A stretch of DNA of 64,000 bases from a virus: positions 32,182-96,181 of the IMG/VR virus record IMGVR_UViG_3300036766_000185, one strand, 5' to 3'. Each line of letters opens with the position of its first letter. Position 1 is the first letter of the stretch. A program made the position numbers and the translations under genes. Shown piece after piece: positions 2,955-45,752 of this stretch. A model generated the notes under the pieces. That model had not been told where the DNA came from. It ran no database searches and was given only the letters and a program-made list of their open reading frames with translations.

Positions 2955-3458
2955 TTACAACTCTTCTGACTGATGCTGCTGAACACTTTCCTTCGCTAGC
3001 TCTGCAACACGCTTTCTGATGTATAGCTTGAGCTTCTTCTTAGCGGATTTCAGATATTTGGCGATCATCTGCTGCGATATTTTATCGCGCTTTCCAACCC
3101 ACTCAGGAACATCTCCAATAGCTTCTTTAGCTATTACCGCTTGTGTTTGAGATTCCGTCCCATACAACCCGTAGTATCTTCGTAGCACAGATTGCTCTAC
3201 TGAGTTGAGAGTTGGTATCGCTTCTGCTAGCGCCTTGAGATATATCTGCATCTTTGGACTAAGCGGCATCTTCATATAATCTTCAGGAAGCCCTATCCAC
3301 GCGGCTACCAACTCTAACTTAGCAGGATTCATTAGAGTTTCCCAGCGTGGACGCTTCCAGGGCTTGCCGCCCATTGTCTCATCGAGGTATTTGTCCCAAG
3401 CTTTTTGTAACTGTTTGGGCGGGAGGCTATCTGAGGGTCTTTTAGGAGGGGTCTTCAT
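2955..3458 (-). CDS. Sigma-70 region 4-like HTH protein
   Basis: 167 residues. The C-terminal half (about 85-155) reads like sigma region 4 or small-terminase HTH domains: LNSVEQSVLRRYYGLYG, then AVIAKEAI and ISQQMIAKYLKSAKKKL as a recognition helix. It could be a late transcription factor or the small terminase. The N-terminus is Pro/Lys-rich and unlike sigma factors. Confidence 0.5.
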   Translation of the reverse strand: MKTPPKRPSDSLPPKQLQKAWDKYLDETMGGKPWKRPRWETLMNPAKLELVAAWIGLPEDYMKMPLSPKMQIYLKALAEAIPTLNSVEQSVLRRYYGLYGTESQTQAVIAKEAIGDVPEWVGKRDKISQQMIAKYLKSAKKKLKLYIRKRVAELAKESVQQHQSEEL

Positions 3459-7669: not shown

Positions 7670-7940
7670 AATGTCTACTCTTTCGTTTATCTTTAGATAG
7701 GTGAACAGAGATCCAGGACCCCATCCCTGACCCTACAGCGTAGAAAAGTGCCACCCAGATATTATTGAGATTCTCTACAAGACTGCGCAACACGACGTAC
7801 CACACTAAAACGTAGATTGTTCCTGCTAGAAACGCCATCAATCCTCTGCCATGGGCTAGAGAGCGAGTATGCCAGCCATTAATGAAGTTTTCAGCTAGCC
7901 CAGCAACGAACAGCAGCGAAGCTACTCCCAAGAACGTCAT
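7617..7940 (-). CDS. Small multi-pass membrane protein
   Basis: 107 residues with three hydrophobic segments (about 3-18, 36-52, 62-80) and a basic C-terminus. It overlaps the transglutaminase-like gene by 53 nt, a larger overlap than is usual here. Family not recognised; holin-like or transporter-like roles cannot be separated. Confidence 0.6.
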   Translation of the reverse strand: MTFLGVASLLFVAGLAENFINGWHTRSLAHGRGLMAFLAGTIYVLVWYVVLRSLVENLNNIWVALFYAVGSGMGSWISVHLSKDKRKSRHYAKTIKISKGDFSFPRY

Positions 7941-24249: not shown

Positions 24250-24694
24250 CGCTGATACGCTCTCCGATTTCATTGATGTGCTTCATCAACTCTTTAGCTG
24301 CTCCTAGCGACTCCTGACTGTGAATATCGCGGGCATGCCCTGGAACTCGGCTTTTTCGCATTTCGAATTGAAATCCTCGTCCAAGTTTTACTCGATCTCG
24401 CTTTACTATGACGTACGGATGAATCATTTTCAGAAATCGATCCGCCATGTTGGCTGTTAAAATCCAATCACCAACGGGCTTGTGCATCCCATGACGCTTG
24501 TAAACTCGAAGATATCCACCGAATTTTCTGTGAATTGATTTCATAAGATCCAGATGAGTATTTACAATTCCGATTCTAAGCGAATAGACCGTAGTCTTTG
24601 TTAGAGGCTTCAAGCTTCGTAGAATTGTTAGATATCCTTCTCCGTCGAACAGACCAGCTAGATATTTCGGAGTTAGTCTATCTTCGATTTCCAT
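24242..24694 (-). CDS. LAGLIDADG homing endonuclease
   Basis: 150 residues. LAGLFDGEGYL at ~14-24 is the catalytic motif helix; the rest fits one LAGLIDADG domain (GYLRVYKRHG, then WILTANMADRFLK). Such single-motif enzymes act as dimers. It sits between ruvC and recA as a free-standing gene, with one-base overlap to ruvC. Phages usually carry HNH or GIY-YIG types, so this is notable. Confidence 0.8.
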   Translation of the reverse strand: MEIEDRLTPKYLAGLFDGEGYLTILRSLKPLTKTTVYSLRIGIVNTHLDLMKSIHRKFGGYLRVYKRHGMHKPVGDWILTANMADRFLKMIHPYVIVKRDRVKLGRGFQFEMRKSRVPGHARDIHSQESLGAAKELMKHINEIGERISDE

Positions 24695-25773: not shown

Positions 25774-25803
25774 AGTATACACTACCTGATGTATCGGTGT
25801 CAA
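25774..25803 (-). promoter_or_regulatory. Promoter, early family
   Basis: Minus strand TTGACA, 18-bp spacer starting CCGATACATC, TATACT, leader with ATAGAAAC. The -35 overlaps the end of the DUF5664 gene. Drives the membrane protein and probably ruvC and recA. Confidence 0.82.
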
Positions 25804-26153
25804 GTATTTGACTTCCAACGAATATCGTCAGTTCCAATGACGCGCTTCTCGAACATTATTAGCGTGAGACAGTGCCAGGCCGCGTGTGCTAGATGATGCT
25901 TTCCACTTTCGGGGTCATACGATTCTCCGTTTAGCCATAGCATTAAATGTCGATACAGCGCATTTACCGAAAGCGACCATTTATAGCCCTTACGATAATT
26001 TGTGGGGTCATATTTCTGTGCCCCATACCCATAGACGCTGCCTAGCTCACTCAGCGCTTCGGGCGGTGCCCATCCCAACTGAGATTCTTTGCTACCCTTA
26101 GCTCCGCCAGTCTTAGGGTCAACAACAATCGTCTCTACTACTCGACTTGTCAT
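25800..26153 (-). CDS. DUF5664 dATP/dGTP diphosphohydrolase-like protein
   Basis: 117 residues from the ATG at 26153. YGYGAQKYDPTNYRKGYKW, then NALYRHLMLWLNGE and HLAHAAWHCLTLI match the phage family named dATP/dGTP diphosphohydrolase (DUF5664). Members hydrolyse (d)NTPs to monophosphates; the S-2L MazZ enzyme produces dGMP for PurZ. That this protein is MazZ is inference, strengthened by the PurZ-like gene ~10 kb away. It overlaps the next promoter. Confidence 0.75.
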   Translation of the reverse strand: MTSRVVETIVVDPKTGGAKGSKESQLGWAPPEALSELGSVYGYGAQKYDPTNYRKGYKWSLSVNALYRHLMLWLNGESYDPESGKHHLAHAAWHCLTLIMFEKRVIGTDDIRWKSNT

Positions 26154-26170
26154 TAGGCGCTCGCTAGATT

Positions 26171-26809
26171 TCAAAGAACGTCCGCACCGTCGTCTAATGG
26201 ATTTAGCGTAGTCGCTGTCGTTGATTCATCTGACTCGGTTTCTGCTTCTTTCTCTGTCTCTTCCTTCTTGGGAGGAACTTGACCCTTGAGTAATGCATTC
26301 AGACGTTCAGGATTTATTTTGTAATATTCATCTAGGTCTACCTTCGCCAGAGTAAGCTCACCCTCGGACAACGGCTTCATATTCGGAGTAATTGTAACAG
26401 AGTAGCGCGTGTCCAGTTTCTCGCCCTTACGAGTAACGGCGATATCAAACTGCGTGGGATGCTTTTCCCACTCAACACTGGTCGCGTGAATCTGCCCCTT
26501 CTTCTCTTCGCTAAACTCCCAAATCTTAACTTTGCCGTCGCGACGATCTAGTACATTAACAATGTTCACTTTACGAATCACGTTTCCTGCAGCTTTGACG
26601 CGCTCATTATCTTCTCGCGCAACAGTAACGGGGTATCGCTTTCCGCCAACCTCAATTCTCGTCATGAAAACTTGCTTCGGCTCCATGTCTAGAATGCGCA
26701 CGGCAGCCGTCTCACCGTCCTTTAAGTTAAAGTACAAAACCTTACTGTACTCTGTCTGTCGTGCATCTGGTTCCCATGCCTTCATCGTTTCGTTTGTCTG
26801 TGCGCTCAT
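26171..26809 (-). CDS. ssDNA-binding-like protein, copy 2
   Basis: 212 residues. It shares the layout of the 216-residue protein at 27891-28541: LKDGETAAVRILDMEP, VNVLDRRDGKVKIWEF, and DIAVTRKGEKLDTRYSV. An acidic tail (ETEKEAETESDES) is typical of phage SSBs. It lacks the zinc Cys of copy 1. Binds single-stranded DNA by inference. Confidence 0.62.
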   Translation of the reverse strand: MSAQTNETMKAWEPDARQTEYSKVLYFNLKDGETAAVRILDMEPKQVFMTRIEVGGKRYPVTVAREDNERVKAAGNVIRKVNIVNVLDRRDGKVKIWEFSEEKKGQIHATSVEWEKHPTQFDIAVTRKGEKLDTRYSVTITPNMKPLSEGELTLAKVDLDEYYKINPERLNALLKGQVPPKKEETEKEAETESDESTTATTLNPLDDGADVL

Positions 26810-28563: not shown

Positions 28564-28592
28564 AGTATATCACACCGTGTTAGTGCTGTTAA
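28564..28592 (-). promoter_or_regulatory. Promoter, early family
   Basis: Minus strand TTAACA, 17 bp, TATACT with TGTGA extended -10; leader TTGTAGAAG. The -35 overlaps the last codons of the polymerase gene. Drives the SSB-like operon. Confidence 0.75.
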
Positions 28593-31096
28593 TTATTCTC
28601 TTTGGCATACTTGAGATTTCCAAGAGATTTCCCATACTTTACTTCCACCGCAAGAGGCACAATAATTCCAGGCATAGCTCTGGTCATTTCTCGTTCCATA
28701 ATCTCCGCAGCTTTCTTCCAATCGCTCTCGCGTACCTCAGTAACCAGTGAATCATGAACAGGCAATACGAGCCGCGCTGTTGGACACTCTGCTTTGAAGG
28801 CCATAGCAATACGATTCATTGCCGCATAAAGTATGTGTGCTTCAAGATTTTGTATCGGGAAATTCACTGCCGATCGCTCTGCATGACCTCTCATCTTCTG
28901 ATCAGGAGACGTAATTTCTGGCAATCGACGACGCGCTCCAAAGAGACTTATTACAAATCCGCGCTGTCTAGCCTCTTGAATCTTTCCTTGTGCATACTGT
29001 CTCGCTTTTGGACAGTTGGCAAAAAAGCGGGTGATATACACCTGTGCTTTCTCTTCACTAATTTTGAAGTGAGAGGCGATTTTCCACGCCGACGCTCCCA
29101 TAATAGTCGCGTACGTGAACGCCTTAGCATTTTGTCTCTCTTCTTTTGTAATTTGATCTTCTGGCTTATTAAAGATCATTGATGCTATAACCTTGTGCAC
29201 GTCGCGCTTTTGTCTAAGATCTTCAATCATTTTCTGATCGTTCATGTAGTTTACCCAAATCCTGAATTGAATTTGCGCATAGTCTGCAGCCACCAAGACA
29301 CAACCCTCGTCAGCCACAAAAATATCTCTCGCTCGACTAGCTATGGTTGCTTTGCCACTTTCATCTTTTTCATCACGCGCAATATTCTGCAGATTGGGAT
29401 TACGAGAGGCTAAGCGGTGAATCTCAGTTCCATACAGTAGAAACTTGCTGTGAATACGTCCATCTTTTCGAATAAACGCTTCGAAATTCTCACCGTAGGC
29501 CGACACCAGATGCTCATATGACCTCTTCTCTGTGATCATTCTTGGAATTTCGTGCACACCAGCAAGCTCTTTAAGCGTGATTTCATCTGTCGATGCATTC
29601 CCCGTTTTAGTCTTTTTAACCGGCCTGAGCTTGAGAATATTGAACAGAATCTTTCGCAATTGTACTGGAGAACTGTAATTAATCTCATCTAGTTCCAGCA
29701 TAACTTTGGCTTGCGCGGTAACAGGATGCGCCTGCAGTTGCTTGTCAATATCCTCGGCGTACGATTGATACTCTTGACGAGTGGCATGAAGTCTCTCAAT
29801 ATCAATCTTCACCCCTGCCCATTCTACGTCGATCAGCGTATTCTGCACCGGCATCATGATACGTCTGAACACGGGCATTAGATTTTGTGTGTCTAGCTCT
29901 TTTAAGAACAATCTACGCAATCGTCCGGTAGCGTCCACGTCAGCAGCCGCATAGGGCCATAGCACGTCGAAAGGAATCTTAGCAAAATCGACGGTCTTCT
30001 TGGCGTATGTCTTGTCTCCCTCAATTACGAGCTTAGTCTTCCATTCCTCGATTTCTGCATTGTACATACCCAAGTCTGTGAACTCTAGCGCCAACTCTTT
30101 AAGGCCATGACTTCTTGCATTCTCATTTAGGAGATGGTGCATGATAATCGTATCGTATGCGAAGTTCTTCACTTGAATCCCAATTGCTCGTAGAAAGGGA
30201 ATATCAAACGCTCCTAGATGTGCAGATTTTGACACGTCAGACTCAAAGAACGTCTTAATCTCTTGCATCACGTCTGCTTGACGCTCACTCCACCATTCTT
30301 TTCCGTCTACGAAAATCGGCACTACATACGCCACGCGCTCGGCAGGGGAGAACCCAATCGAAATAATGCGATGCTTATCTACATCAAGCCCTGTCGTTTC
30401 AAGGTCGAAGTCTACCGTCTCTGCCGCTCGTAGCTCTGCAAGAGCCGCATCCAGATCCTCAAGCGTTTTGACAAGTTGATAGTCCGTAGGCAGTCTCTTA
30501 GTCTCCAGCGATTTTCCTTCAAGCATCAACTTAATCATTCGCAAGTCCTTGACAAATTGATCTTTCAGTCGTGTATCTCCAGGATTGCGAAGAATATACG
30601 ATGGATGATAGGTCGGTACCAGTTTACAATTAAAATCCTCACTAGAGAAGATAGATCCTCGCAAGCGTGTAATACCCGCTTTATCAAGAAAGACCTTTAG
30701 CGCTGTCGCTCCAAGTAATACTATGATCTTAGGTTGCACTTCTCGAATTTCTCTGATTAGATACGACGCATCACCAACGATCTCACTCATGGTTGGGACA
30801 CGATTCTCAGGAGGGCGCACATGATACACATTTGTAATATAGACCTGCTCACGGTCAAATCCGGCCTCAATAAGACATTTCGTAAGCACCTGCCCAGCAG
30901 GACCAACAAATGGTTTTCCTTGCGCATCTTCCTCAGCGCCAGGAGCTTCACCAATAAACATGAGTTCAGCAGGCGTAGGACCCGCGCCACAGACATATCG
31001 TGCATTTGGGATAGGGAGCGCACCTTCTGGGCACTCCTTGAATACTACGCTAATTATAGGTTCTGCTATCTTTTTAGTGTTCATTCTCGTAGTCAT
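28589..31096 (-). CDS. DNA polymerase family A with N-terminal UDG family 4 domain
   Basis: 835 residues in three parts. Residues ~35-190: family 4 uracil-DNA glycosylase (GEAPG 49-53, Asp57, HPSY 164-167), but the usual CxxC Fe-S pair is incomplete. ~225-400: 3'-5' exonuclease (Asp231/Glu233, Asp298, Tyr382/Asp386). ~410-830: polymerase; motif A DYAQIQFR (605-612), motif B R654, K658, Y662, M666, G667, motif C HDS (781-783). Compared with E. coli Pol I these put Gln at E710, Tyr at F762 and Met at Y766. UDG-polymerase fusions occur in some phages. Replicates phage DNA; ATGA-coupled to the primase gene. Confidence 0.9.
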
Positions 31097-33453: not shown

Positions 33454-34248
33454 CTAGACCTTAGGCAAGAACCAGCCCATCGAAACTCCACTCGATTTCG
33501 AAGCATCCTCAGCAGCACATCGATCTTGAAAGCTACACAAATGACACTTCACATAAGTTGGGTCAAAGTTTTTGGCTTGAATCTTCATCCAATCCGCATC
33601 GATAGCCTCTATCAATTTTTTGTGATCAAGCTCAGTTCTCGAAGCCCACTCTACCATTTTGTGTCTAGGGTATAAAAATCCAATTTTGCTAGCTCTCAGA
33701 TTGAGCACTCTGAGTACCGCTAAATCGTATATTGTCACCTGATCGTTGGCGAGCAGTTCGGCTTCGGTGAGTTTGTACACTCCCGTTTTGAAGTCTATAA
33801 TCCAAATTTCTCCACCAACTTCAACGATTAGATCAACGATCCCTATCAAATCGTACGTTCTTCCTGATGCTGCTACTACAGAGACTGAAAATTTCCACTC
33901 AGTCTTAATTGGCGCTTTTAAGATGCCAACTTCACCAGCAAGCACGTGAAATTTTGACAGGATAGTTCTGCCCATGCTTACCCATCTTCTTTCTGATTCA
34001 GCGCTGGGAAATTGATATTTCTCTCGTTTTAAATACTCAGAGAAGCTAGCAGGCCAAAGATCAAGAATGAACGGAAGATCAAAGTTTTTTGCCAGATACA
34101 TCTTGTTTATTACTTTATGACAGGCTGACCCAACAATAGTAGAGATCATCTGTGGTCTATCAGGAGCAACACGATCCACATACTTATATCGATACTGACG
34201 AGGACACCATTCAAACGTAGACTTGCTTGAATAGCTGACTCTTTCCAT
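33454..34248 (-). CDS. Cas4/RecB-like PD-(D/E)XK nuclease with Fe-S cysteines
   Basis: 264 residues. Cys15 (WCPRQYR), His (GSACHKV), Asp (LIGIVDLI), IIDFKTG, and a C-terminal Cys triplet (CHLCSFQDRC) reproduce the Cas4-type order with a four-Cys cluster. Such enzymes resect DNA ends. No CRISPR array is present in the window. Confidence 0.78.
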   Translation of the reverse strand: MERVSYSSKSTFEWCPRQYRYKYVDRVAPDRPQMISTIVGSACHKVINKMYLAKNFDLPFILDLWPASFSEYLKREKYQFPSAESERRWVSMGRTILSKFHVLAGEVGILKAPIKTEWKFSVSVVAASGRTYDLIGIVDLIVEVGGEIWIIDFKTGVYKLTEAELLANDQVTIYDLAVLRVLNLRASKIGFLYPRHKMVEWASRTELDHKKLIEAIDADWMKIQAKNFDPTYVKCHLCSFQDRCAAEDASKSSGVSMGWFLPKV

Positions 34249-34787
34249 TATATGTCCGAGGCTAGCACTCTAAGACGACTATACAAAGTTCTCAGAATCG
34301 GATATCTGCGTAATTTCTCAACCAGCACCGATACTCTAGTTTTACTGATGTGCAGCCTCTTAGCGATTTCTGTAAGAGAAGTCCCACAGCACAGTTGATC
34401 AAAAATCACGATGTATTTGCTAGCGATATGCTCATCATTGAGAGACGCAACAATTTGCTTTCTAAGAATCGCTCTAATCTTTAACAGCATCTTCTTGTAA
34501 TCGTCTTTCTCGGTATTTAATTCTCTAAAGTTCATTGAACAAATCAACTGAGGAGCCATGAAAATCTTTTTATTTTGCTGCTCGTCTTCTATCATATTAG
34601 CGTCTAGACTCACACACCCAGACATGGCCCTCTGAACGGCTGCTTTATTGATATTAGTAAGTTGAGGAACGTGTACAGACGCTCCAGATTGCGATATGCC
34701 ACGACCCCAACTTCTCCCGTCGCGAGACTGAGCATCCTCGCGCAATTTTCGCAGCAATCTATCGTATCCGTCAGGATGTATGGTCAT
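34248..34787 (-). CDS. HTH protein, sigma region 4-like
   Basis: 179 residues. C-terminal part CGTSLTEIAKRLHISKTRVS forms an HTH like sigma-70 region 4 or terminase small subunits. N-terminus is unusual for a sigma factor. Start at 34787 or a TTG at 34793. May direct phage transcription. Confidence 0.5.
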   Translation of the reverse strand: MTIHPDGYDRLLRKLREDAQSRDGRSWGRGISQSGASVHVPQLTNINKAAVQRAMSGCVSLDANMIEDEQQNKKIFMAPQLICSMNFRELNTEKDDYKKMLLKIRAILRKQIVASLNDEHIASKYIVIFDQLCCGTSLTEIAKRLHISKTRVSVLVEKLRRYPILRTLYSRLRVLASDI

Positions 34788-34789
34788 TT

Positions 34790-35041
34790 TCAAAACGGGA
34801 TTTGTACTCTTACTCCGCCCTCCTGCTCTCGCTGATTAGCATAGCCATAGAACAAGATTCGCCTTCTTGGAGAAGCATGAGCGTATTTTTCCTTCATCTG
34901 TCTATTAAGAATGTCAATATATCGCTCATTTAACACTATGAGATTGCTCCTTGAGGTGGTTTCGTAAGATTTTCCAATAGATAAAGCCGCACAGGAGCTT
35001 GCACTCAGACTAAGAGCAATTAGCAAACAGAGTCTATTCAT
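34790..35041 (-). CDS. Putative lipoprotein (83 residues)
   Basis: Start at 35041 (MNRLCLLIALSLSASSC) from GGAG spacing. The hydrophobic leader ends in a lipobox-like SASSC, then a basic domain. Size would suit an outer-membrane spanin, though no partner is clear. Confidence 0.5.
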   Translation of the reverse strand: MNRLCLLIALSLSASSCAALSIGKSYETTSRSNLIVLNERYIDILNRQMKEKYAHASPRRRILFYGYANQREQEGGVRVQIPF

Positions 35042-35526: not shown

Positions 35527-35839
35527 CTTCAAAGTTCCTGCTAAACAAGCGTCTAGCTTCCAGCCAGTCCTTAACTCGTGAATCGTCCATTTCGAAATCT
35601 TCACCATGTTTAAGAGTCGCAATAATTTCTCGCTTAAACTCGTCATACCATGCTAGGGCTTCGTCTACAGATGCTCCAAAATGTAGCAGTAGAGCAAGAG
35701 CAAGCTGCGACGGTCCACTTCCCAAATAGCCCCATTGAAAACCCGTGGGAGAATGATCTACCACTTTGCGACTAGCCTCCAAATCTAAGGGCTTGCCGTC
35801 TACGTAAACCATGTTTTCTTGGGTGATTCCCGTAATCAT
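35507..35839 (-). CDS. Conserved-type phage protein (110 residues)
   Basis: VDHSPTGFQWGYLGSGPSQL and LALALLLHF resemble the DUF6166-like phage family (HSPxGFxWGYxGSGPxQLALA). Role unknown. ATGA overlap with the PurZ-like gene upstream. Confidence 0.6.
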   Translation of the reverse strand: MITGITQENMVYVDGKPLDLEASRKVVDHSPTGFQWGYLGSGPSQLALALLLHFGASVDEALAWYDEFKREIIATLKHGEDFEMDDSRVKDWLEARRLFSRNFEDETKNC

Positions 35840-36912
35840 TCTATTCTCCTCACCCAGTTCTGAAAGCCTGTTGATACGTACACGATTGGAGTTGCTACGT
35901 CCTTTTCCAACTTAGCGATCTGCTCTTCTGCTGCGGCGTCCAAAATCTGACTATTATGCAAGTCAGGTCTTAAGTAATCAAAGAAACTGAGAGCGATAGC
36001 ATCTGGCTCGCAGGCCTCGACCATCGCCTCTACTAGTTCTGGATTCCACTTTGCGATTCTGCGAATACGCTTGGTCACCGTAGTTCTCTCTGGCTGTATG
36101 TACCCGCCAGTTTGCGCAGCCAATTCGTCCCAAGTAACTTCTTCTCCCATGTACCCTGAGGGGCCAGCAACGCGAATTGGAAATGTTCGCATCACAGCTA
36201 TAGTAACGTAGTTCACATTGTTTGTCAATCCAACATCGTTCAACACCTGAGGAGGAGTAATATCTCTACTTGTGGCCGTTGGGTAAAATGGCCCATTGAG
36301 GCTTAGACCCCAGCCCTGTGTACTCTCCACGACAATTGCCGTGTTTCTATCTCGATATTGCTTTCGAAGCTCTTTGCCTACATCTCCGATGTACGACTGC
36401 AAAATCTCAACATTCTTAGCAACCGTAGCGCGGCGCATAACTTTGTCAGCTTGAGCCGCTCCAACTCCTTCTCCGGTGCTACCAATGCCTTTAACTAGAT
36501 CGTGCTCTGCTTCTCGGTGTTTTTCTTCGACTATTGTAACATGACGATCAATCATCAGGTGCTCTTGACAATAGTTAGCGCCCATGTGTGCGTCTACTAG
36601 ATCTATCTCTCTGTGTAGAACTTCAAGATCAATCAGCGCACCAGGTCCGATGTAAAGCTTAGCTTTGTCGTTGAACCACCCACACGGAATCTGACGCATA
36701 GCATAGACTCGTCCATCAACTATAATCGAATGTCCAGCTTGCGGCCCGCCAGACCGTACAACGGATAGATTCTGAAGCCCCGTTGCAGCGTTAATGTTCA
36801 CTCTGTTCTTAGGGTCTACGAGCCAAGCGATATAAGCCCCCTTACCTTCGCTTCCGAAGGCTCCGCCAATCACTATCCACACCGAACTCTCATAGAGCGA
36901 TGCACGTCTCAT
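35836..36912 (-). CDS. purZ: PurZ-like (adenylosuccinate synthetase family) enzyme
   Basis: 358 residues, short like PurZ and archaeal enzymes (bacterial PurA is ~430). The P-loop region reads GGAFGSEGKGAY at 16-27; S21 replaces the Asp13 of E. coli PurA, which is the reported feature of PurZ. GGPQAGH (His61) matches the PurA His41 site; later STGEGVG and ESTQGWGLSL follow the family order. PurZ ligates Asp to dGMP toward dZMP (2-aminoadenine). GGAGG precedes the start. It could instead be a divergent PurA; the Ser and length favour PurZ. Confidence 0.75.
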   Translation of the reverse strand: MRRASLYESSVWIVIGGAFGSEGKGAYIAWLVDPKNRVNINAATGLQNLSVVRSGGPQAGHSIIVDGRVYAMRQIPCGWFNDKAKLYIGPGALIDLEVLHREIDLVDAHMGANYCQEHLMIDRHVTIVEEKHREAEHDLVKGIGSTGEGVGAAQADKVMRRATVAKNVEILQSYIGDVGKELRKQYRDRNTAIVVESTQGWGLSLNGPFYPTATSRDITPPQVLNDVGLTNNVNYVTIAVMRTFPIRVAGPSGYMGEEVTWDELAAQTGGYIQPERTTVTKRIRRIAKWNPELVEAMVEACEPDAIALSFFDYLRPDLHNSQILDAAAEEQIAKLEKDVATPIVYVSTGFQNWVRRIE

Positions 36913-38411
36913 TTTTCCTCCTGTTTTGCTTCCACTGTCTGTTTTGATTCTTCTATCTGTCTAAGAATGTTTATGTCATTAAAATATATGTAATACGCTA
37001 AGTCAGAGCGCTTGATCTTCTTAATCGTTTCTGCCAGGAACTGCAAGTCAGACTTCGAATAAGTTTCAAGTTGCAGCACAGTCTGAATCAGTTCTTTTGT
37101 TGCTTGTCTACCCTTGGCATCGCCCGTGCTATGCAGGGCTGAGACTCGACTATACTCTCGCATTAAGAGATTCACCAGCGGAGATAGCTGCGCTGCAGTT
37201 AGAATTTCTAGCTTCGTCAGATTATAGCGCGTAGACGTGATCAACTCTACATCGAAATGTAGCGCTCGCAATAGCTCCATAATTGCCCGATAGCGAGCAG
37301 CAGTATACGTCTTACGCATGATCATGACTCTTTGCATTCCCGCTCTCTCAAAGAAAGGATTGTATCGTGCCATCACGGCCATGGTCTCAACAACCGACTT
37401 TGCGTAGGGAGAGTTTAGATAGTTACGCACGATTTCTGCTCCTAATCCTATCCCCCTAAACTTTGGCGTAATAACCACGCGAGAGATCACCTCTACCTCC
37501 TCGTTTAGCTGTTTATAATTTCTCACATATCGCTTGTTGGTAATAAAGTTGCGCTCCTGACTTTCAAGCATCGGATAACGAGTAATCAGCGCTCCGATTA
37601 CAATCCCGTTTAGCTTAGCTGAGTACACACTTCGTAAAGCGACGGGAGCTTTCTCATTTTTATAGTGAAACGCAGCCAACCCTGACTGTTCATAGTCGTT
37701 GTACGTCCCTAGCTCATACTTAATGTCGTCTAGCATTGAAAACTTGCGTGAAGTTATTGTTCTGTGCTCGACGGTTCCGCTTGCTCCGTAGCTTTTCTGC
37801 ACCAGTACATCGGGATTCAAATCTGCTTCTAAGTCAGTATGCGTCGTCGCTACGATTAATGTTACTCCAAGTTTTCTAGCTAGTTTCTGTATACTGTAGG
37901 CGATCACTTTCGCCGTTTCACGATCAAGAGTAGCACAGAACTCATCTATCATCCATACCTTTAAATTTGTGTCGATCATTCTTGCTATTCTGTAGCGATA
38001 GGCTTGTCCATCACTAAGCTGCGAATATTGTCGTAACATCAAGAAAGCGTCTCCAAGACCGGCACGTGCTAGAATTTCTAATGCTTCTTCAACAGTCCTT
38101 CCCACGCTGTCTATTAGGACGTCGCTACCATCTATCATGAGCGTATTTAGAGATATAACTCCGTAATCTTGACTGATTTTCTTATACAAGTGTCTCAGCA
38201 ACGCAGATTTACCTCCGCCGCTATCACCAGTAATATACACCACATCTCCAGTATTGATTGTTAAAGGCTGACGATCGTACACCACGAATTCCTTCTCTTC
38301 ATCAATTCCTAAGCCAAATGCCTCTGCAACGACCACCGTACGATCAGTAATCGCAGCACTCGTCTTGAAAGAGACGCTAATCAGACCATCGAACAGTGGC
38401 ATTTTGTCCAT
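36909..38411 (-). CDS. ABC-type ATPase fused to GNAT acetyltransferase
   Basis: About 500 residues from the ATG at 38411. ABC part: Walker A GDSGGGKS, signature-like LSDGQAYRYRIAR, Walker B VWMIDEFCATLD, H-loop ATTHTDL. Then a GNAT domain with VISRVVITPKFRGIGLGAEI. The ABC part is soluble with no membrane partner. It overlaps the PurZ-like gene by 4 nt. Acetyltransferase folds (such as Mom) modify DNA bases in phages, so base modification is a reasonable, unproven role. Confidence 0.75.
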   Translation of the reverse strand: MDKMPLFDGLISVSFKTSAAITDRTVVVAEAFGLGIDEEKEFVVYDRQPLTINTGDVVYITGDSGGGKSALLRHLYKKISQDYGVISLNTLMIDGSDVLIDSVGRTVEEALEILARAGLGDAFLMLRQYSQLSDGQAYRYRIARMIDTNLKVWMIDEFCATLDRETAKVIAYSIQKLARKLGVTLIVATTHTDLEADLNPDVLVQKSYGASGTVEHRTITSRKFSMLDDIKYELGTYNDYEQSGLAAFHYKNEKAPVALRSVYSAKLNGIVIGALITRYPMLESQERNFITNKRYVRNYKQLNEEVEVISRVVITPKFRGIGLGAEIVRNYLNSPYAKSVVETMAVMARYNPFFERAGMQRVMIMRKTYTAARYRAIMELLRALHFDVELITSTRYNLTKLEILTAAQLSPLVNLLMREYSRVSALHSTGDAKGRQATKELIQTVLQLETYSKSDLQFLAETIKKIKRSDLAYYIYFNDINILRQIEESKQTVEAKQEEK

Positions 38412-38412
38412 T

Positions 38413-38640
38413 TTACCAGTTTGCGGGCGCGTGTCCCCACAGTTCAAAGGGAGCGTACGCTTTGTACCCTGTTTTTGTCTTTTTCAGCGCGACATACGCT
38501 TCGTTCATCAAGTCTTCGTGCTTAATGTCGGCGTTGAAGAGTAGTTCAGCCGCTTTCTCAGAGGGCACAAGATAGTAGAAATTCCCTCTCTTGAGAACAT
38601 CAACGTCGCCCTTAAACACTCCTACAATCTCAGTTTTCAT
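38413..38640 (-). CDS. Hypothetical protein (75 residues)
   Basis: Mixed protein (VDVLKRGNFYYLVPSEKAAE). No family recognised. 1-nt gap to the ABC-GNAT gene. Confidence 0.5.
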   Translation of the reverse strand: MKTEIVGVFKGDVDVLKRGNFYYLVPSEKAAELLFNADIKHEDLMNEAYVALKKTKTGYKAYAPFELWGHAPANW

Positions 38641-39901: not shown

Positions 39902-39931
39902 AGTATACACTACCTAAGATATCGACGTCTA
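39902..39931 (-). promoter_or_regulatory. Promoter, early family, altered -35
   Basis: Minus strand TATACT with GATATCTTAGGTAGTG in the spacer as in 33419-33448, but the -35 is TAGACG in place of TTGACA, which is also a half-site of the TAGAC-N4-GTCTA dyad next to it. Possibly activator dependent. Confidence 0.6.
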
Positions 39932-39933
39932 GA

Positions 39934-39947
39934 TAGACGTACGTCTA
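39934..39947. promoter_or_regulatory. Dyad TAGACGTACGTCTA (operator candidate)
   Basis: Perfect 14-bp palindrome upstream of the altered promoter, with another half-site just beside it (CGTCTAGATAGACG across 39926-39939). The same TAGAC-N4-GTCTA form recurs at 42158-42171 and 45439-45452. Confidence 0.6.
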
Positions 39948-40955
39948 CTATTTCACTCTCCAGCATCTGAGTTGCAGGTTCGCATTGACTCCTAAACCCT
40001 CGATAGCTTTCATATAATCAGCGTTATGCTGCACGGTTGCGCTTCCCTGTACTACCGCTGCATTTGCCCAAACTCCCCCTGTTACGATAAGAGAGTTTCC
40101 TCCACCATTAATCTTAAACGTTCCGGTCGTGTAGATTGCTCCATTAATTATCCCATTCCCGTTGACTGTTGTGTCCATTGTGTTGGCGTCTGCTGTCTCT
40201 ACATTTCCCACTACGACAATGAACCCTGCGATCGTTCCTATGTTTCCGTTCAAAATCAAGTCTCCATCAATATACACAACGTTGGGTACGCCCGTTGCTG
40301 AGTTACTAGGGTCTGTCGGAGAGGTGTACCAAAAAGACGATGGGAATCCAATTGATTGCACGTTGCCACCCAAGTGCACGTTGTTTTGAGACTGAGCTAT
40401 TTCGTATAGTCTGTTGTAGTCAAGTCCTGGGAGAGGATTGGCATCCGGGCTAGAAATCACGTTTCCACTTACATTTTGCGTATTTGAGACTCTCTGCTCT
40501 GCCGTAAATACATCACCAGTTACTGCGTACGAATTCCCGGTCAGATCGACGTTGTTCGCTCCCCAAATCGCGTAGTTATAAAACCCGTTTTGAGGAGTGC
40601 GAACTAGCGTTACCTCTAACTTTTTAACAATGCTGTTCACTGTGCCAATAGTTGAGATTGTTCTAACAGACGATGTTGGACAATCAATCGAATACTGATA
40701 AGATGATGTGATCGCTATGTTCTTTGTGGTAGAGGTCCCGCACAGCGACCAGTATTTGCTCTTGTCTTTTAGCGCTAAGATTGCTTCGTCTACTCCTGCC
40801 TCAGCCAACTGAAAAGACTTAACGCTAGAAATGTGTATCAACGCTATAGTGTTTTCGTTCGCGCTACGCACCAGCCCAGCAGCGATAAGAGTGCTGGCCA
40901 TCGCAACCACAAAAAGCGCTGTTATAAGCACAATTCCCTGTTGATTCTTACGCAT
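39948..40955 (-). CDS. PilX/type IV pilus-assembly-like protein
   Basis: 335 residues. N-terminus MRKNQQGIVLITALFVVAMA is a PilX-N-type prepilin-like helix, followed by QLAEAGVDEAI as in PilX family proteins, then a beta-rich domain (GNVISSP, VYIDGDLILNGNIGT) like polymer-forming repeats. Such proteins belong to bacterial type IV pili, so a phage copy is unusual. GGGAGGAG precedes the ATG. Surface exposure and role are inference. Confidence 0.7.
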   Translation of the reverse strand: MRKNQQGIVLITALFVVAMASTLIAAGLVRSANENTIALIHISSVKSFQLAEAGVDEAILALKDKSKYWSLCGTSTTKNIAITSSYQYSIDCPTSSVRTISTIGTVNSIVKKLEVTLVRTPQNGFYNYAIWGANNVDLTGNSYAVTGDVFTAEQRVSNTQNVSGNVISSPDANPLPGLDYNRLYEIAQSQNNVHLGGNVQSIGFPSSFWYTSPTDPSNSATGVPNVVYIDGDLILNGNIGTIAGFIVVVGNVETADANTMDTTVNGNGIINGAIYTTGTFKINGGGNSLIVTGGVWANAAVVQGSATVQHNADYMKAIEGLGVNANLQLRCWRVK

Positions 40956-41154
40956 TTTCTCCTCCCTCTCGTATCTCTGCTAAAATCTGGGAATATGCCT
41001 TCTCCAGAACTGACACGATAGAGATATTGCGCTTGTAGAGTTCTTTCCCGCGCTCTAACGCTCCTTCGATTCCGTAATCTGGAATTAAGCTTCGCAACCC
41101 TTCTTTTGCCATCTCGACTATCATTTGATCAGACTCTACGATTTGCTCAGCCAT
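40948..41154 (-). CDS. Hypothetical protein (68 residues)
   Basis: Helical, charged protein (MAEQIVESDQMIVEMAKEGL). GGAGG precedes the start; overlaps PilX-like gene by 8 nt. Confidence 0.5.
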   Translation of the reverse strand: MAEQIVESDQMIVEMAKEGLRSLIPDYGIEGALERGKELYKRNISIVSVLEKAYSQILAEIREGGENA

Positions 41155-41534
41155 TTCTTTGCCTCCTTCTTAGCCCATCTGTCTGCATCACGTTCGATCC
41201 AACTTTTGTCATGAGATTTTTCGTCTCCATCCTGAATCTTTAGCAGAGCCTTCTTCAATTTCTCTGGTTCGACGTTATTGTTTTGATGAACGTGATAGAT
41301 CTCATGTAACAGAATCGTTACCGTGAAGTCATACAGACTTTTGATCTTACCCAATCGTTTTGTGAAGCGTGGGGTCTCAAACAGGTCTTTCGCGTGATCA
41401 GTGCTTAAAATGATTGAGTTTTGTGCAGCATCAAAATGCGTTGTTCCATAGTCAACCACGTCAATCGTTATCCCTTCTAGGAACGGATAGCTCGTCTTGA
41501 TCTTCTTGATTAGAGCTTTCAGTTCTTTTTTCAT
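41136..41534 (-). CDS. Zincin-like metalloprotease
   Basis: 132 residues. LLHEIYHVHQ is an HExxH zinc site; a later ERDADRWAKKEA provides the third ligand (Asp or Glu). No signal peptide, so cytoplasmic. Overlaps its downstream neighbour by 19 nt. Confidence 0.7.
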   Translation of the reverse strand: MKKELKALIKKIKTSYPFLEGITIDVVDYGTTHFDAAQNSIILSTDHAKDLFETPRFTKRLGKIKSLYDFTVTILLHEIYHVHQNNNVEPEKLKKALLKIQDGDEKSHDKSWIERDADRWAKKEAKKWLSKS

Positions 41535-41537
41535 TGA

Positions 41538-42017
41538 TCAGACTCCTGCTGTTGCTTGCCGATTCCAAAGCTCTAGCTCTGTGTTTCGCACCTGCAATCG
41601 CGTACGAGCGCTCTGATCTTGCGGGTGCTCGTGAACTGAAATGTGCTCTGTAGAACCATACTCTACTGGCTTGGCTACTCTAGCTGGGCGCTGATCGCTC
41701 GCTAGTTGCACTCGCAGATTGCACTTGCGAAGATCGAGCGTGTTTCCATTTAAATAAACGACAATCTCTTCCTCAGCAGTCATTCCCTGATGCCCTGGGT
41801 CTAAATCAACGATCTCTCTCGCAATATTAAACCCGTACTTAGTGCCATCGTGCTTTTTCACGTAGTCTTTCGTCTCCTGCTTAAAAATGAAGAGTGGAGC
41901 ACGGTCGTATTGCGCTGCATCTTCAACGTGAAACTTTACAGGACGAACATCGAGCCGATCTTTTCTATACCCGATCGCAACAACTGTCTGTTCTTTCCCG
42001 CATTCGCAATTCTGCAT
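41538..42017 (-). CDS. HNH-like protein (partly degenerate)
   Basis: 159 residues. NGNTLDLRKCNLRV near the middle is the C-terminal half of phage HNH endonucleases, but the preceding strand lacks the canonical first His/zinc Cys (VVYLNGN). N-terminal CECG may bind metal. Catalysis uncertain. GGAGG precedes its start. Confidence 0.5.
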   Translation of the reverse strand: MQNCECGKEQTVVAIGYRKDRLDVRPVKFHVEDAAQYDRAPLFIFKQETKDYVKKHDGTKYGFNIAREIVDLDPGHQGMTAEEEIVVYLNGNTLDLRKCNLRVQLASDQRPARVAKPVEYGSTEHISVHEHPQDQSARTRLQVRNTELELWNRQATAGV

Positions 42018-42058
42018 CTGACCCTCCTCCGCTTGGCGTTCGCTTCGTTTCTACTACA

Positions 42059-42088
42059 ATTATATCACACCGAGCATATCGGTGTCAA
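42059..42088 (-). promoter_or_regulatory. Promoter, early family, consensus -10
   Basis: Minus strand TTGACA, 18-bp spacer starting CCGATATGCTCGG, TATAAT with TGTGA before it, leader TTGTAGTAGAAACG. The strongest match of the set. Drives the HNH-like, zincin and PilX-like genes. Confidence 0.87.
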
Positions 42089-42100
42089 GATCTCGGAAAA

Positions 42101-42177
42101 GGGCTTACAAAAAGCTTACACGCCGTCTAGTATGATAGTAGACAAGCATCCCATTAGTAGACGCGTGTCTACTAGAC
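42101..42177. promoter_or_regulatory. Control region: 7-bp direct repeat and TAGAC dyads
   Basis: 42101-42120 (GGGCTTACAAAAAGCTTACA) has GCTTACA twice, 11 bp apart. Five TAGAC/GTCTA half-sites follow (42125-42129, 42139-42143, 42158-42171 as a dyad, 42173-42177). The same 20-mer lies inverted at 45410-45429. On the minus strand TAGTAGAC-ACGC-GTCTACTA also forms an 8-bp hairpin just after the tRNAs. Operator or origin-like role is inference. Confidence 0.6.
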
Positions 42178-42188
42178 CAGTGCTCTCA

Positions 42189-42265
42189 TGGTGGGCTAGG
42201 CGGGATTTGAACCCGCAGCCTAGAGATTAGAAGTCTCTCGCTCTATCCATTTGAGCTACTAGCCC
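42189..42265 (-). tRNA. tRNA-Arg (TCT)
   Basis: 77 nt with encoded CCA. Acceptor GGGCTAG/CTAGCCC, D arm GCTC/GAGC, anticodon stem AGAGA/TCTCT with loop CTTCTAA (anticodon TCT), T arm GCGGG-TTCAAAT-CCCGC. Reads AGA codons, which are common in these genes. Confidence 0.93.
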
Positions 42266-42267
42266 AT

Positions 42268-42341
42268 TGGTAGGCTGTCCTAGTGCTGCCCTAGGTTCTG
42301 CCCCTTATAAGGAGGCTGCTCTACTGTTGAGCTAACAGCCT
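42268..42341 (-). tRNA. tRNA-Ile (TAT)-like, atypical T loop
   Basis: 74 nt with encoded CCA. Acceptor AGGCTGT/ACAGCCT, D arm GCTC/GAGC, anticodon stem GCCTC/GGGGC, loop CTTATAA (anticodon TAT). T stem CCTAG/CTAGG closes GGCAGCA, not the normal TTCRANY. Reads ATA if functional; the T loop raises doubt. Its 5' base overlaps the HNH stop. Confidence 0.7.
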
Positions 42342-42648
42342 AAATCTTCGTTTGATGAGGACAGACGTGTCCATATCTAATTCCAAACTGGCAATTCATA
42401 CACAAAATCTGAAAACTCGACGGGTATTTGTTTCTCTTAAGCCAATAGTAAAACTTGGTGCCACTACCTACCTTCTCTCGATGTTTATTTCCATCACCAT
42501 TGATGTGATCAACACTAAGAAATACTATTTCTCGCTCTTCGCAACAGACACAGCATCCTCCATAAGCCTGTACTACGTCTCGCTTTAATTTCTGTTGTTG
42601 CTTTTTGATATATGCTCTAAAGTCTTTTGAAGTCTTAAATAACTTCAT
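42340..42648 (-). CDS. HNH homing endonuclease
   Basis: 102 residues. CCVCCE and CMNC zinc pairs flank FLSVDHINGDGNKHR, the HNH core (DH..N..N.H). The gene stop touches the tRNA-like Ile gene, so it may act in tRNA-cluster mobility. Confidence 0.78.
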   Translation of the reverse strand: MKLFKTSKDFRAYIKKQQQKLKRDVVQAYGGCCVCCEEREIVFLSVDHINGDGNKHREKVGSGTKFYYWLKRNKYPSSFQILCMNCQFGIRYGHVCPHQTKI

Positions 42649-43607
42649 CAGTTCGTCTCAACCTCGGCACTACATGTGCGGCAGTGCCCATCATACTTCT
42701 GAATGCTGTCTCCGATAGCCAGCGCCTTGTAACGCAGGTCGCCCAATGTAGAGTTAGCTGCATTCGTTAAATCGTTGACCACATCGAACCACGTCAACTT
42801 CTCTAGCTCTACAGCCTCTGACCACTTTTTCCAGAACTTGCTCACAAACGCCTTGGGAAACATATCTAGCACGACGGATAACTCGCGCACGTGCTTGACT
42901 TGCTGTGTCGTAGTGCTCTTGAACCAGTTCATTAGTAGCTGCGCGTGTTTGAAGTACGAGTCGTCAAAATCAAACTCGTCGCGCTGCCACACATTCATTG
43001 TTCGTGTCAACCCGTTTGTGCAGACTAGACGATTGAGTCCTGCAGCAACTTGCACCTTTCCGTTCAATGAAACGAACAGCCCGCAGTCAACGAAATCGTC
43101 CTTCTGCACTTCCTGACGCAATCGCTTCGCTAAAAATTGAAGCTCGACGTGATCGCCGTGAGACCCAACAACTACACGATCAACGCCAAGATTCTGCTTC
43201 TGCACTCCCTCAACGATGCGTGGCAAGCGCGTGTCTGCTTGTTGCCCAGGTGTCACCAGCTTTGTTCGGAGAGGCACATTCACAATCTCTTTCGTTTCTG
43301 AGTCCTCGGAAACTCCGCTCACAATGTCGATCAGCACACGCGGAGTTCCAGCATAGCCCCAGTATCGCTGCAGAGCGTCGCGCAGCGTTGAATAGTCGCC
43401 CTTTTTGTAGAGCGCGTCCCAATACTTCCCAAAAGGAGCGCTGATCTCTTGTAGTTTCAGCGTAAGCGGATACTCAACGCGCCCTTTGGGAGTGAAGCGC
43501 ACCGTTTCATCTTCGCGCCATTCACCATCCAAAATCTCTTTCGCCTCACAGACGAACGTAATTGCGTCCGTCAACTGCCCGTCGAACTTTGACCAATGAG
43601 CACTCAT
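42648..43607 (-). CDS. DUF932-like phage/plasmid protein
   Basis: 319 residues from the ATG at 43607 (GGAGG upstream). LNRLVCTNGLTR is the hallmark of DUF932 proteins; C-terminal CRTC may bind zinc. Role unknown; often near replication genes in phages. Confidence 0.68.
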   Translation of the reverse strand: MSAHWSKFDGQLTDAITFVCEAKEILDGEWREDETVRFTPKGRVEYPLTLKLQEISAPFGKYWDALYKKGDYSTLRDALQRYWGYAGTPRVLIDIVSGVSEDSETKEIVNVPLRTKLVTPGQQADTRLPRIVEGVQKQNLGVDRVVVGSHGDHVELQFLAKRLRQEVQKDDFVDCGLFVSLNGKVQVAAGLNRLVCTNGLTRTMNVWQRDEFDFDDSYFKHAQLLMNWFKSTTTQQVKHVRELSVVLDMFPKAFVSKFWKKWSEAVELEKLTWFDVVNDLTNAANSTLGDLRYKALAIGDSIQKYDGHCRTCSAEVETN

Positions 43608-43909
43608 TTCTTCCCTCCTCGCTCTTGTTCTTCTAGCCTCCAAAGCTTCAACACTGAACTCGTTATAGACCGAGCGACCTTGTGAAGTTCTCGGACTTGC
43701 TCTAAGTTTGCGGTCACCTGTTTCGCTTCCTCAGAAAACCCCAGTTCCCTCAAAGCCAACTCCAGCCTAGGCAATAATTGCACCCCGCCAAGCATTTCAT
43801 TTTCAAAAGTTAGCACAGACCCGTGTATGTGCCCCAAGCGCTTTTCACGATCTTTACAGTCCAACCACCCCGCATCTTCCCACCCGAAAATCTGACTCAA
43901 CTTCGCCAT
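43604..43909 (-). CDS. Hypothetical protein (101 residues)
   Basis: Helical protein (LPRLELALRELGFSEEAKQV), basic C-terminus. AGGAGGG precedes the ATG. First gene behind promoter 43959-43988. Confidence 0.5.
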   Translation of the reverse strand: MAKLSQIFGWEDAGWLDCKDREKRLGHIHGSVLTFENEMLGGVQLLPRLELALRELGFSEEAKQVTANLEQVRELHKVARSITSSVLKLWRLEEQERGGKK

Positions 43910-43958
43910 TCCACCCTCCTGTGTTTGACTCCGCTCCGTTCGTCCTGTCTCTACTGTA

Positions 43959-43988
43959 AGTATATCACACCTGACATATCGGTGTCAA
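43959..43988 (-). promoter_or_regulatory. Promoter, early family
   Basis: Minus strand TTGACA, 18-bp spacer CCGATATGTCAGGTGTGA, TATACT, leader TACAGTAGAGAC. Drives the 101-residue gene, DUF932-like gene, HNH and the two tRNAs. Confidence 0.85.
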
Positions 43989-43995
43989 GTCGGCA

Positions 43996-44877
43996 TTAAG
44001 ATATATCTCTCTTGTCTCGAAAAGCTAAGAATACAGGGAATCTGGGTACATCTTTGACTCCATAGGGCTGAAACTTGAAGGTGACGATCTTCCCTTTTAA
44101 CGTGTCGCGTGTCTTCCAAAGCTCGTCTCGCTGTGCGTCATTGAAACCCGTCCCGATGTTGAACTCGTTCGTAAAGTCTTTGCTCTTGACGATGAGTGCT
44201 CCCAGCGTTCCAACAGGGACCAAGTTTTCTTTGTGGCTGCTTCGTTCTGTTCGTCCAAAGGCGTCCTTCTTAGCCTCGTTGGCGTTGTGCATCTTTTCTT
44301 CGTAGCCAACGACAACGGCTTCGGCATCACTGAATCGCTTCAACTTGAGTAGATAGCCTTCTTTTGATGTAGAACGACCACATTTATATGGCCCGTCAGG
44401 AGAGCGGAGCATAACTCCCTCATAACCTTCTGCTAAACAGCGCTCCTCGTACGCAAGCAGGCACTCTTTATTTTTAATCTCAATGGGAAGCACTAGACTG
44501 CACCCTTTTGGAGCGTGAAGCTTTTCGAGTCGCTTCATTCTCAAGCGGTACGGCTCTTGCAGATGACCCTCAACCGCGTAATCAAAAATGAAGTACGTAA
44601 CGTCGGGAGTACCATCAACGCTCATAACTGCGTGAGTCGCCTCTTGAAAAGTACCACCCTCGATCATCAATTCGCCATCTACACCATCAGGAAAGTTCTT
44701 CTCGACAAAATCTCGAACATGGTCGTTGGGAATGGGCTTAAATGAACGGCTGAGCAGTCGCCCGCCGATCTTAAGAGCGCGAATGCCGTCTAGCTTGGGA
44801 GTGCAGAGCACGGGGTACACGATATCTGACAAAGATTCAAGCTTAGCCGCCAGCATTGGTTTAGTCAATCTCGACAT
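43996..44877 (-). CDS. ATP-dependent DNA ligase
   Basis: 293 residues from the ATG at 44877 (AAGGAGG upstream). Adenylated Lys in PKLDGIR (motif I), DGELMIEGGTF (motif III), EGVMLRSPDGPYK (motif IV), YLLKLKRF (motif V), and C-terminal OB fold. A minimal phage-type ligase. Confidence 0.9.
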   Translation of the reverse strand: MSRLTKPMLAAKLESLSDIVYPVLCTPKLDGIRALKIGGRLLSRSFKPIPNDHVRDFVEKNFPDGVDGELMIEGGTFQEATHAVMSVDGTPDVTYFIFDYAVEGHLQEPYRLRMKRLEKLHAPKGCSLVLPIEIKNKECLLAYEERCLAEGYEGVMLRSPDGPYKCGRSTSKEGYLLKLKRFSDAEAVVVGYEEKMHNANEAKKDAFGRTERSSHKENLVPVGTLGALIVKSKDFTNEFNIGTGFNDAQRDELWKTRDTLKGKIVTFKFQPYGVKDVPRFPVFLAFRDKRDIS

Positions 44878-44909
44878 TGTACCTCCTTTCCTCTCGTTTC
44901 TGCTTCTAT

Positions 44910-45074
44910 CTATAGTATAGCACACCCCGAACTCGGTGTCAAGATCTCCTGCTGCTTGGCTTCGTCCGGTCGATGAGTCTCACAGTGATAACAGAGCTTC
45001 CAGAAAGCCCTATTCCAAAATGAACACATGGTGCATTGCCAATACTCTATCCCATTCAGAGATCGTGTCCTCAT
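44910..45074 (-). CDS. RanBP2-type zinc finger protein (54 residues)
   Basis: Start at 45074 (MRTRSLNGIEYWQ). WQCTMCSFWNRAFWKLCYHC matches the W-x-C-x2-C-x~10-C-x2-C finger of RanBP2 type, which in other proteins binds ssRNA or ubiquitin. The longer frame to 45209 crosses a promoter and is not used. Its 3' end contains promoter 44914-44942. Confidence 0.6.
   Translation of the reverse strand: MRTRSLNGIEYWQCTMCSFWNRAFWKLCYHCETHRPDEAKQQEILTPSSGCAIL
44914..44942 (-). promoter_or_regulatory. Promoter, early family, inside gene end
   Basis: Minus strand TTGACA, 17 bp, TATACT within the last codons of the RanBP2-like gene; leader ATAGATAGAAGC. Drives the DNA ligase. Confidence 0.83.
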
Positions 45075-45119
45075 TGTCTCTCGCCCCGCTGCTCGTCTGT
45101 CGCTTTCGTTTCTATCTAT

Positions 45120-45148
45120 AGTATACACTACCTCGAACTTAGTGTCAA
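45120..45148 (-). promoter_or_regulatory. Promoter, early family
   Basis: Minus strand TTGACA, 17-bp spacer (CTAAGTTCGAGGTAGTG), TATACT, leader ATAGATAGAAACG. Drives the RanBP2-like gene. Confidence 0.82.
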
Positions 45149-45157
45149 GATTTCTGT

Positions 45158-45325
45158 TCACTCCCACTTCGTAACTTTCCCAATCAAAGCTACAAGTCGC
45201 TGTCTCCACTCTTCCTTCTGCTTTTTGCTAAACACGTCTGAACCCTCGTAACCACCCGCAAGGTACAGCGTCAGATCGGTTAGCTGCTTGCTGGTCAAGC
45301 GCAGCACCGCGATGTTCTCTGGCAT
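45158..45325 (-). CDS. Hypothetical protein (55 residues)
   Basis: Start at 45325 (MPENIAVLRLTSKQLTDL) with GGGAGGTGA upstream. Charged helix, KKQKEEWRQRLVALIGKV at the C-terminus. First gene behind promoter 45373-45378. Confidence 0.6.
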   Translation of the reverse strand: MPENIAVLRLTSKQLTDLTLYLAGGYEGSDVFSKKQKEEWRQRLVALIGKVTKWE

Positions 45326-45372
45326 CAACGTCTCACCTCCCTTCGTTTTTGTTCGCCCTCGTTTCTACTACT

Positions 45373-45378
45373 AGTATA
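45373..45378 (-). promoter_or_regulatory. Early-family -10 element
   Basis: TATACT with GTAGTG before it and leader AGTAGTAGAAACGA, as in the family, but the -35 region has no good TTGACA at 17-18 bp. It sits next to the 45410-45452 control region, so may need an activator. Confidence 0.6.
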
Positions 45379-45409
45379 CACTACCTGTGTAAGGACCGTG
45401 TTAGCTCCT

Positions 45410-45452
45410 TGTAAGCTTTTTGTAAGCCCTTTAGGCAGTAGACGCACGTCTA
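45410..45452. promoter_or_regulatory. Control region: inverted 20-mer and TAGAC dyad
   Basis: 45410-45429 is the reverse complement of the 42101-42120 20-mer, and 45439-45452 is TAGACGCACGTCTA. About 275 nt (45326-45600) around it hold no convincing gene, only this region and two promoter-like elements. A further 150 nt to 45752 hold the terminator. Confidence 0.6.
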
Positions 45453-45630: not shown

Positions 45631-45669
45631 ACAGAAAAGCCCCGCTCTCCGAACTATAAAGAACGAGGC
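45631..45669 (-). terminator. Rho-independent terminator of the virion operon
   Basis: Minus strand: GCCTCGTTC pairs with GAGCGGGGC over 9 bp (two G-T), 13-nt loop, followed by TTTTCTGT. It lies downstream of the last virion gene and before the early promoters. Confidence 0.75.
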
Positions 45670-45752
45670 CAAAAGATGTATGAAGCTAGTTTGATACTCT
45701 CTAAACGTCTTGAATGCAACCGCAATACTGAAGGACGCGAGCGCGATACTGT

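Follow-up and report, generated by a model that had tools for sequence, protein, structure and literature searches.

Direct-repeat boxes and TAGAC dyads at early promoters of an uncultured PurZ-bearing phage: putative binding sites for two regulators

Two short sequence elements accompany promoters in the window considered here, the 64,000-nucleotide stretch comprising bases 32182-96181 of the 96,181-bp IMG/VR virus record IMGVR_UViG_3300036766_000185 (feature coordinates below are window positions). One is a direct repeat of the unit GCTTACA, the other a dyad, TAGAC-N4-GTCTA, and a composite block holding both kinds of element at one of the promoters is conserved in a related phage. Judged from the DNA itself, the sites most likely represent a conserved but conventional regulatory feature, probably ordinary protein-binding switches. 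Our tentative reading, which we hold to be plausible but short of probable, is that the repeat is an OmpR/PhoB-type site and the dyad the operator of a dimeric regulator, both placed at promoters of the early/replication module. That proteins bind these sites is suggested by their arrangement; the families and the origin of such proteins, as well as the sign of their effect, are proposed with less assurance.

The minus strand carries all genes of the record, and also the 12 members of a promoter family that was collected by pattern and by profile. The family layout consists of TTGACA, a spacer such as CCGATAT-N4-GGTAGTG or GGTGTGA, TATACT, and then a TAGAAACGA-like start; a search of IMG/VR with the spacer pattern returned 18 contigs, all of them unrelated or chance matches. 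Three promoters, all on the minus strand, are of concern here. P1 (39902..39931) has TAGACG in place of the -35 element, a family-type 18-bp spacer (CGATATCTTAGGTAGTG) and the -10 element TATACT (39907). P2 (42059..42088) is a perfect TTGACA-18-TATAAT promoter, with its -10 at 42064. P3 (45373..45378) consists of the family -10 TATACT (45378) without a -35, and is the first family promoter past the structural operon and its terminator, an intrinsic terminator-like hairpin (45638..45670, minus strand) closing that operon. The original prediction of altered or missing -35 elements thus holds for P1 and P3 and fails for P2.

The exact dyad occurs three times, at the positions first reported and nowhere else in the record: TAGAC-GTAC-GTCTA (39934..39947), just past the stop of a pilin-like gene and upstream of P1, TAGAC-GCGT-GTCTA (42158..42171), upstream of P2, and TAGAC-GCAC-GTCTA (45439..45452), upstream of P3, all three with a central pyrimidine-purine step. 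From the dyad centre to the first base of the -10, the distances are 33.5 bp at P1, 100.5 bp at P2 and 67.5 bp at P3. Additional half-sites are also present. One, TAGACG at 39926-39931, occupies the -35 position of P1, and five TAGAC half-sites, starting at 42125, 42139, 42158, 42167 and 42173, are clustered at 42125..42177 (P = 0.0055 in the record for five within 60 bp); the second dyad, when extended to 42155-42174, has perfect 8-bp arms, TAGTAGAC/GTCTACTA. With these half-sites, the dyad looks like the putative operator of a dimeric regulator. As terminators the dyads were rejected, since the RNA hairpins they could form have weak to moderate stability (-4 to -12 kcal/mol) and no U-tracts.

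As to chance, Markov models of the record predict 0.10-0.13 exact dyads, versus the three observed. However, every shuffled genome contains three or four copies of some dyad with 5-bp arms (gaps of 0-12), and the number of copies is thus no proof in itself. The dyads gain meaning from their position at promoters and from a relative. All three lie within 130 bp upstream of one of the 12 family promoters, a space amounting to 1.76% of the record, and the simple probability of such placement is 5e-6, before allowing for selection. A profile scan gives 25-26 bits for the three copies and 17.0 for the next site, so that the random spread of similar dyads over the genome, named in the original prediction as the outcome that would speak against it, is not seen. 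That short dyads and repeats recurred by chance, a view favoured by the shuffled genomes, is therefore very improbable as an account of the whole, given the promoter-only location, the exact 23-bp repeat and the conserved block described below.

The 20-mer reported at 42101, with its reverse complement at 45410, is exact, and it belongs to a longer exact inverted repeat of 23 bp (42098-42120 and 45410-45432), the arms being 3289 bp apart. The left arm (42098..42120, plus strand) contains a CTTACA-N5-CTTACA box (42104-42120), which, when read along P2, is TGTAAG-N5-TGTAAG, with 15 bp separating it from the -35 downstream and 39 bp from the -10. An array of four 7-bp units with 4-bp spacers upstream of P3 (45388..45427, minus strand), GCTTACA AAAA GCTTACA AGGA GCTAACA CGGT CCTTACA, covers the greater part of the right arm; its units end 42, 31, 20 and 9 bp before the P3 -10. 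The array matches at 26 of 28 positions, while the runner-up in the record, overlapping registers excluded, matches at 18, and its periodicity was matched by none of 20,000 shuffles. The 11-bp period noted for the 20-mer is thus real, and is kept throughout, with four units at P3 and two each at P2 and in the relative G002. In a scan with a box profile, four sites score 17.7-19.2 bits, and the next scores 13.3. The exact 20-mer has no match in IMG/VR. Being exact and inverted, the 23-bp repeat might be taken for a recombination or transposition substrate flanking a 3.3-kb segment, an explanation that is hardly credible: no tyrosine integrase was found in the record, the genes inside the segment are on the same strand as those outside, and the box is present as a single copy in G002. 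The combination of a recombinase gene with two repeat copies that would point to inversion or to transposon ends was not found.

The strongest evidence for function comes from comparison with relatives. These were found with major capsid and PurZ queries and are G001 (95,342 bp, capsid 87% identical), G002 (93,921 bp, capsid 79% and PurZ 62% identical), G003 and G004; the ligase, the DNA polymerase and a 331-amino-acid protein, when used as queries, returned distant relatives or none. G002 contains CTTACAAAAGCCTTACA inside a control region that can be aligned to that of P2 over 80 bp (BLAST E = 1.4e-11 for an 84-bp block that includes the promoter). Upstream of the -35, 34 of 41 bp are identical, a match expected by chance 7e-9 times in the G002 record, versus 25% identity over the 40 bases further upstream and 28% over the 60 bases downstream. 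The box is spaced equally in both phages, 15 bp from the -35 and 39 bp from the -10; the letters kept are TGTAAG, TAGACG and GAGATC, and upstream in G002 there are three exact TAGAC half-sites along with TACAC-GTCT-GTCTA, one mismatch away from the dyad. A conserved block of constant spacing between diverged flanks is the pattern of a phylogenetic footprint, here with one relative, and since the block is conserved while its flanks are at chance identity, the sites are probably functional; for the P2 site, chance is very unlikely. A gene downstream of the G002 control region is an orthologue (52%) of a gene behind P1, and a tRNA-Ile(tat) lies upstream; the one G002 region therefore combines features of P1 and P2. 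The search for further copies in the full genome and in relatives, suggested at the outset, yielded this composite region and, in the record, no more exact dyads. A dyad in G004 (29749) was set aside, with no recognised promoter nearby. As a separate observation, a long pentapeptide-repeat-like protein (ANLREADLR...; G002 L289, 17334-18314) is encoded downstream of the conserved control region.

The arrangement of the box recalls known response regulator sites. PHO boxes consist of directly repeated 7-nt units separated by 4 variable nt (PMC4415409), PhoP of M. tuberculosis depends on a spacer of 4 bp and has higher affinity for arrays of three and four units (PMC4832192), and HP1043 of H. pylori and PmrA bind 6-N5-6 repeats (PMC5253667, PMC3973317). 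The sites described here likewise consist of two to four 7-nt units with 4-nt spacers (or 6-N5-6), ending beside a -10 without a -35; they have the direct-repeat period of 10-11 bp and the location at or just upstream of the -35 that characterize OmpR/PhoB boxes. They differ from the PhoB, PhoP, PmrA and HP1043 sites in that they are read from sequence in a phage without such a regulator, and in that GCTTACA equals none of the compared consensus units, even if it resembles the PHO-box units CTGTCAT, GTTCACC and PyTTAAPyPyT/A. In the PhoP regulon of Salmonella, direct boxes are active at whole helical turns from the -10 (12 and 23 bp), and for boxes in reverse orientation the active positions are half turns (27, 37 and 48 bp; PMC3335776), a rule roughly followed by the direct units of P3 (9 and 31 bp) and the reversed box of P2 (39 bp). 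Direct-repeat sites at phage promoters, with a host response regulator as the proposed reader, are also described for the cyanophages S-PM2d and P-SSM2, and host PhoB binds S-PM2d promoters in electrophoretic mobility shift assays (PMC10976474); unlike in S-PM2d, binding here is deduced from sequence and has no known phosphate link; no phosphate gene was seen downstream of the sites. The TAGAC cluster, in turn, resembles the box of AgrR, an OmpR-family regulator with a 6-N4-6 inverted repeat and extra direct half-sites (PMC7380067), in its 4-bp gap and its extra half-sites upstream of the -10; the half-site is ATTACA there and TAGAC here.

We therefore hold, with no more than moderate confidence, that the box functions as a site of the OmpR/PhoB type would, read most simply by a host protein, and we do not file it as a PHO box. 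In mechanistic terms, the GCTTACA repeat, with 7 + 4 bp giving one unit per 11 bp, would be a tandem site occupied by an OmpR/PhoB-type winged-helix activator. At P3, where the four units end 9 bp short of the -10, this protein would stand in for the missing -35 contact (class II activation); at P2 it would act from a two-unit box that has the reverse orientation and lies 39 bp upstream of the -10 of a promoter that is complete. No OmpR-type DNA-binding domain (PF00486) was found in the phage record at E <= 1, the same search being positive in 12 of 14 control genomes; because the phage encodes no such protein, the activator would be supplied by the host, and these phage genes would thereby be tied to a host signal. 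The TAGAC-N4-GTCTA dyad and its half-sites would be occupied by a dimeric regulator, which at P1 would sit near the -35 and at the other two promoters further upstream. Of the activator initially proposed, the idea of regulator binding sites stands, and P1 and P3 have the look of activator-dependent promoters; the motifs, however, number two and probably serve two proteins, and the P2 core is perfect. Were this reading true, an uncultured phage group akin to PurZ-bearing phages would be added to the few whose early transcription may answer a host signalling protein, and the short conserved DNA block could be used as bait. A further reading, held to be rather unlikely, involves DNA modification: this lytic phage, which has PurZ and other Z-DNA genes, is predicted to replace adenine by 2-aminoadenine, and a host two-component response regulator acting on the multi-unit boxes of its early, replication-module promoters would then let a physiological signal of the host be sensed on modified DNA during infection.

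Several points weigh against an OmpR/PhoB-type activator from the host. The conservation is with a single relative, G002; nothing within one mismatch of the box is present in G001, G003 or G004, the dyad is absent from G001 and G003, and the P3 array is not found at the equivalent promoter of G002. The spacing of P2, 39 bp, differs from those at which boxes of Salmonella PhoP were reported to work (PMC3335776), and Pho boxes predicted in phages from sequence alone have been called unreliable (PMC10976474). The comparison covers published regulators and sites from other systems, and nothing was found that names the binder of the dyad. Finally, three-unit CTTACA arrays are widespread in bacteria and phages, so that the motif fails to single out a regulator. 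Searches of GTDB genomes and IMG/VR gave CTTACA-N5 arrays of 11-bp period in the intergenic regions of many phyla, where they are frequent and in many cases simple tandem repeats. They have no neighbour gene in common (integrase domains are encoded by 4 of 77 neighbouring genes), and so the motif could not be connected with any pathway.

It is possible, though doubtful, that the phage itself encodes the regulators, which would activate or time the promoters in the manner of lambda CII. The CII sites of lambda are TTGC-N6-TTGC direct repeats flanking a missing or poor -35, and the direct repeats over the missing -35 of P3 would suit a CII-like activator as well; the units differ, being GCTTACA and not TTGC-N6-TTGC, and no CII homologue was identified in the phage. 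Many of the small early proteins lack an assigned function, and any of these might be such a regulator. Another candidate, one of two helix-turn-helix (HTH) proteins named as binders in the original prediction, is encoded at 34248..34793 (minus strand), with orthologues in G001 and in G002, which has the box; the best fold matches of its C-terminal HTH are to sigma region 4, and are non-significant. The other (2955..3458, minus strand), beside the terminase genes, also has orthologues in G001 and G002, and its HTH is recognized by eye, with no Pfam match. The fold models of the two are poor (mean predicted local distance difference test scores of 45 and 57). As G001 keeps both orthologues yet lacks both motifs in its 95-kb record, neither protein is specifically linked to the sites, and this weakens the case for a phage regulator, as does the lack of an OmpR-type domain in the record.

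The box might also serve as an UP element, or as phased A/T tracts, that would assist RNA polymerase without a protein of their own. Upstream of the -35, both P2 and G002 have T-tracts spaced about 11-12 bp apart, and weak TTAAG-like repeats of 10-bp period are seen upstream of two module-leading promoters, in G001 (L294, ~1170-1220) and in G002 (L290, ~4093-4150). The latter are not significant once corrected for 21 promoters, the letters conserved between P2 and G002 extend to more than tracts, and P3 has a single A-tract along with specific units, making this a decidedly unlikely explanation. Even less probability attaches to the sites forming a replication origin, with the repeats as iterons and an initiator binding them and the dyads. 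Short direct repeats and dyads do occur in the early/replication half of the genome, and P3 coincides with a GC-skew step at ~45.3 kb of the window. However, that step tracks the boundary of the structural and replication modules in three phages (G000, G001 and G002), and in G002 it is ~6 kb away from the conserved block, so a skew change at the site, common to relatives, is not observed; in addition, the sites are tied to promoters, at a fixed distance from the -35, and are spread over three loci. The replication-related protein suggested earlier thus finds no support.

Another palindrome overlaps some of the same promoters. ACACCGA-N5-TCGGTGT at 42067-42085 covers the -35 and spacer of P2, and ACACCGA-N4/5-TCGGTGT, imperfect in some cases, is found over the -35 and spacer of several early promoters (also at 43967-43985, 44922-44939 and others). 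It resembles a repressor operator and is not kept in the spacers of G001 and G002.

As to gene content, genes for a portal, a family A DNA polymerase, a primase-helicase, an adenylosuccinate-synthetase-like PurZ and an ATP-dependent ligase are present in the record, which is most reasonably taken for a lytic phage. A likely gene set for 2-aminoadenine (Z-DNA; PMC12884076) is found at 35836-36912, 25800-26174, 7937-8488 and 28589-31096, and includes the PurZ-like protein with a GSEGKG motif, a DUF5664/dGTP_diPhyd_N enzyme, a nucleoside-deoxyribosyltransferase-like protein, possibly DmtZ, whose Pfam score is below the cut-off, and the family A polymerase. Adjoining purZ, the frame at 36909-38447 (minus strand) matches an ABC-type ATPase and has a C-terminus that, by eye, looks like an acetyltransferase. 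The pilin-like gene preceding the first dyad (39948-40955, minus strand) encodes a PilX-like protein with the N-terminus KNQQGIVLITALF... and no Pfam match. A frame for a LAGLIDADG-like homing endonuclease, recognized by eye, is located at 24242-24694 (minus strand), between RuvC-like and RecA-like genes. Directly upstream of the P2 control region is a tRNA-Arg(tct) gene (42189..42265, minus strand), and a second tRNA (42271-42341, minus strand), with 43.7 bits in Rfam, was missed by ARAGORN and has an odd T-loop; its anticodon, by eye, is TAT, the same as in the tRNA-Ile(tat) of G002 and G003.

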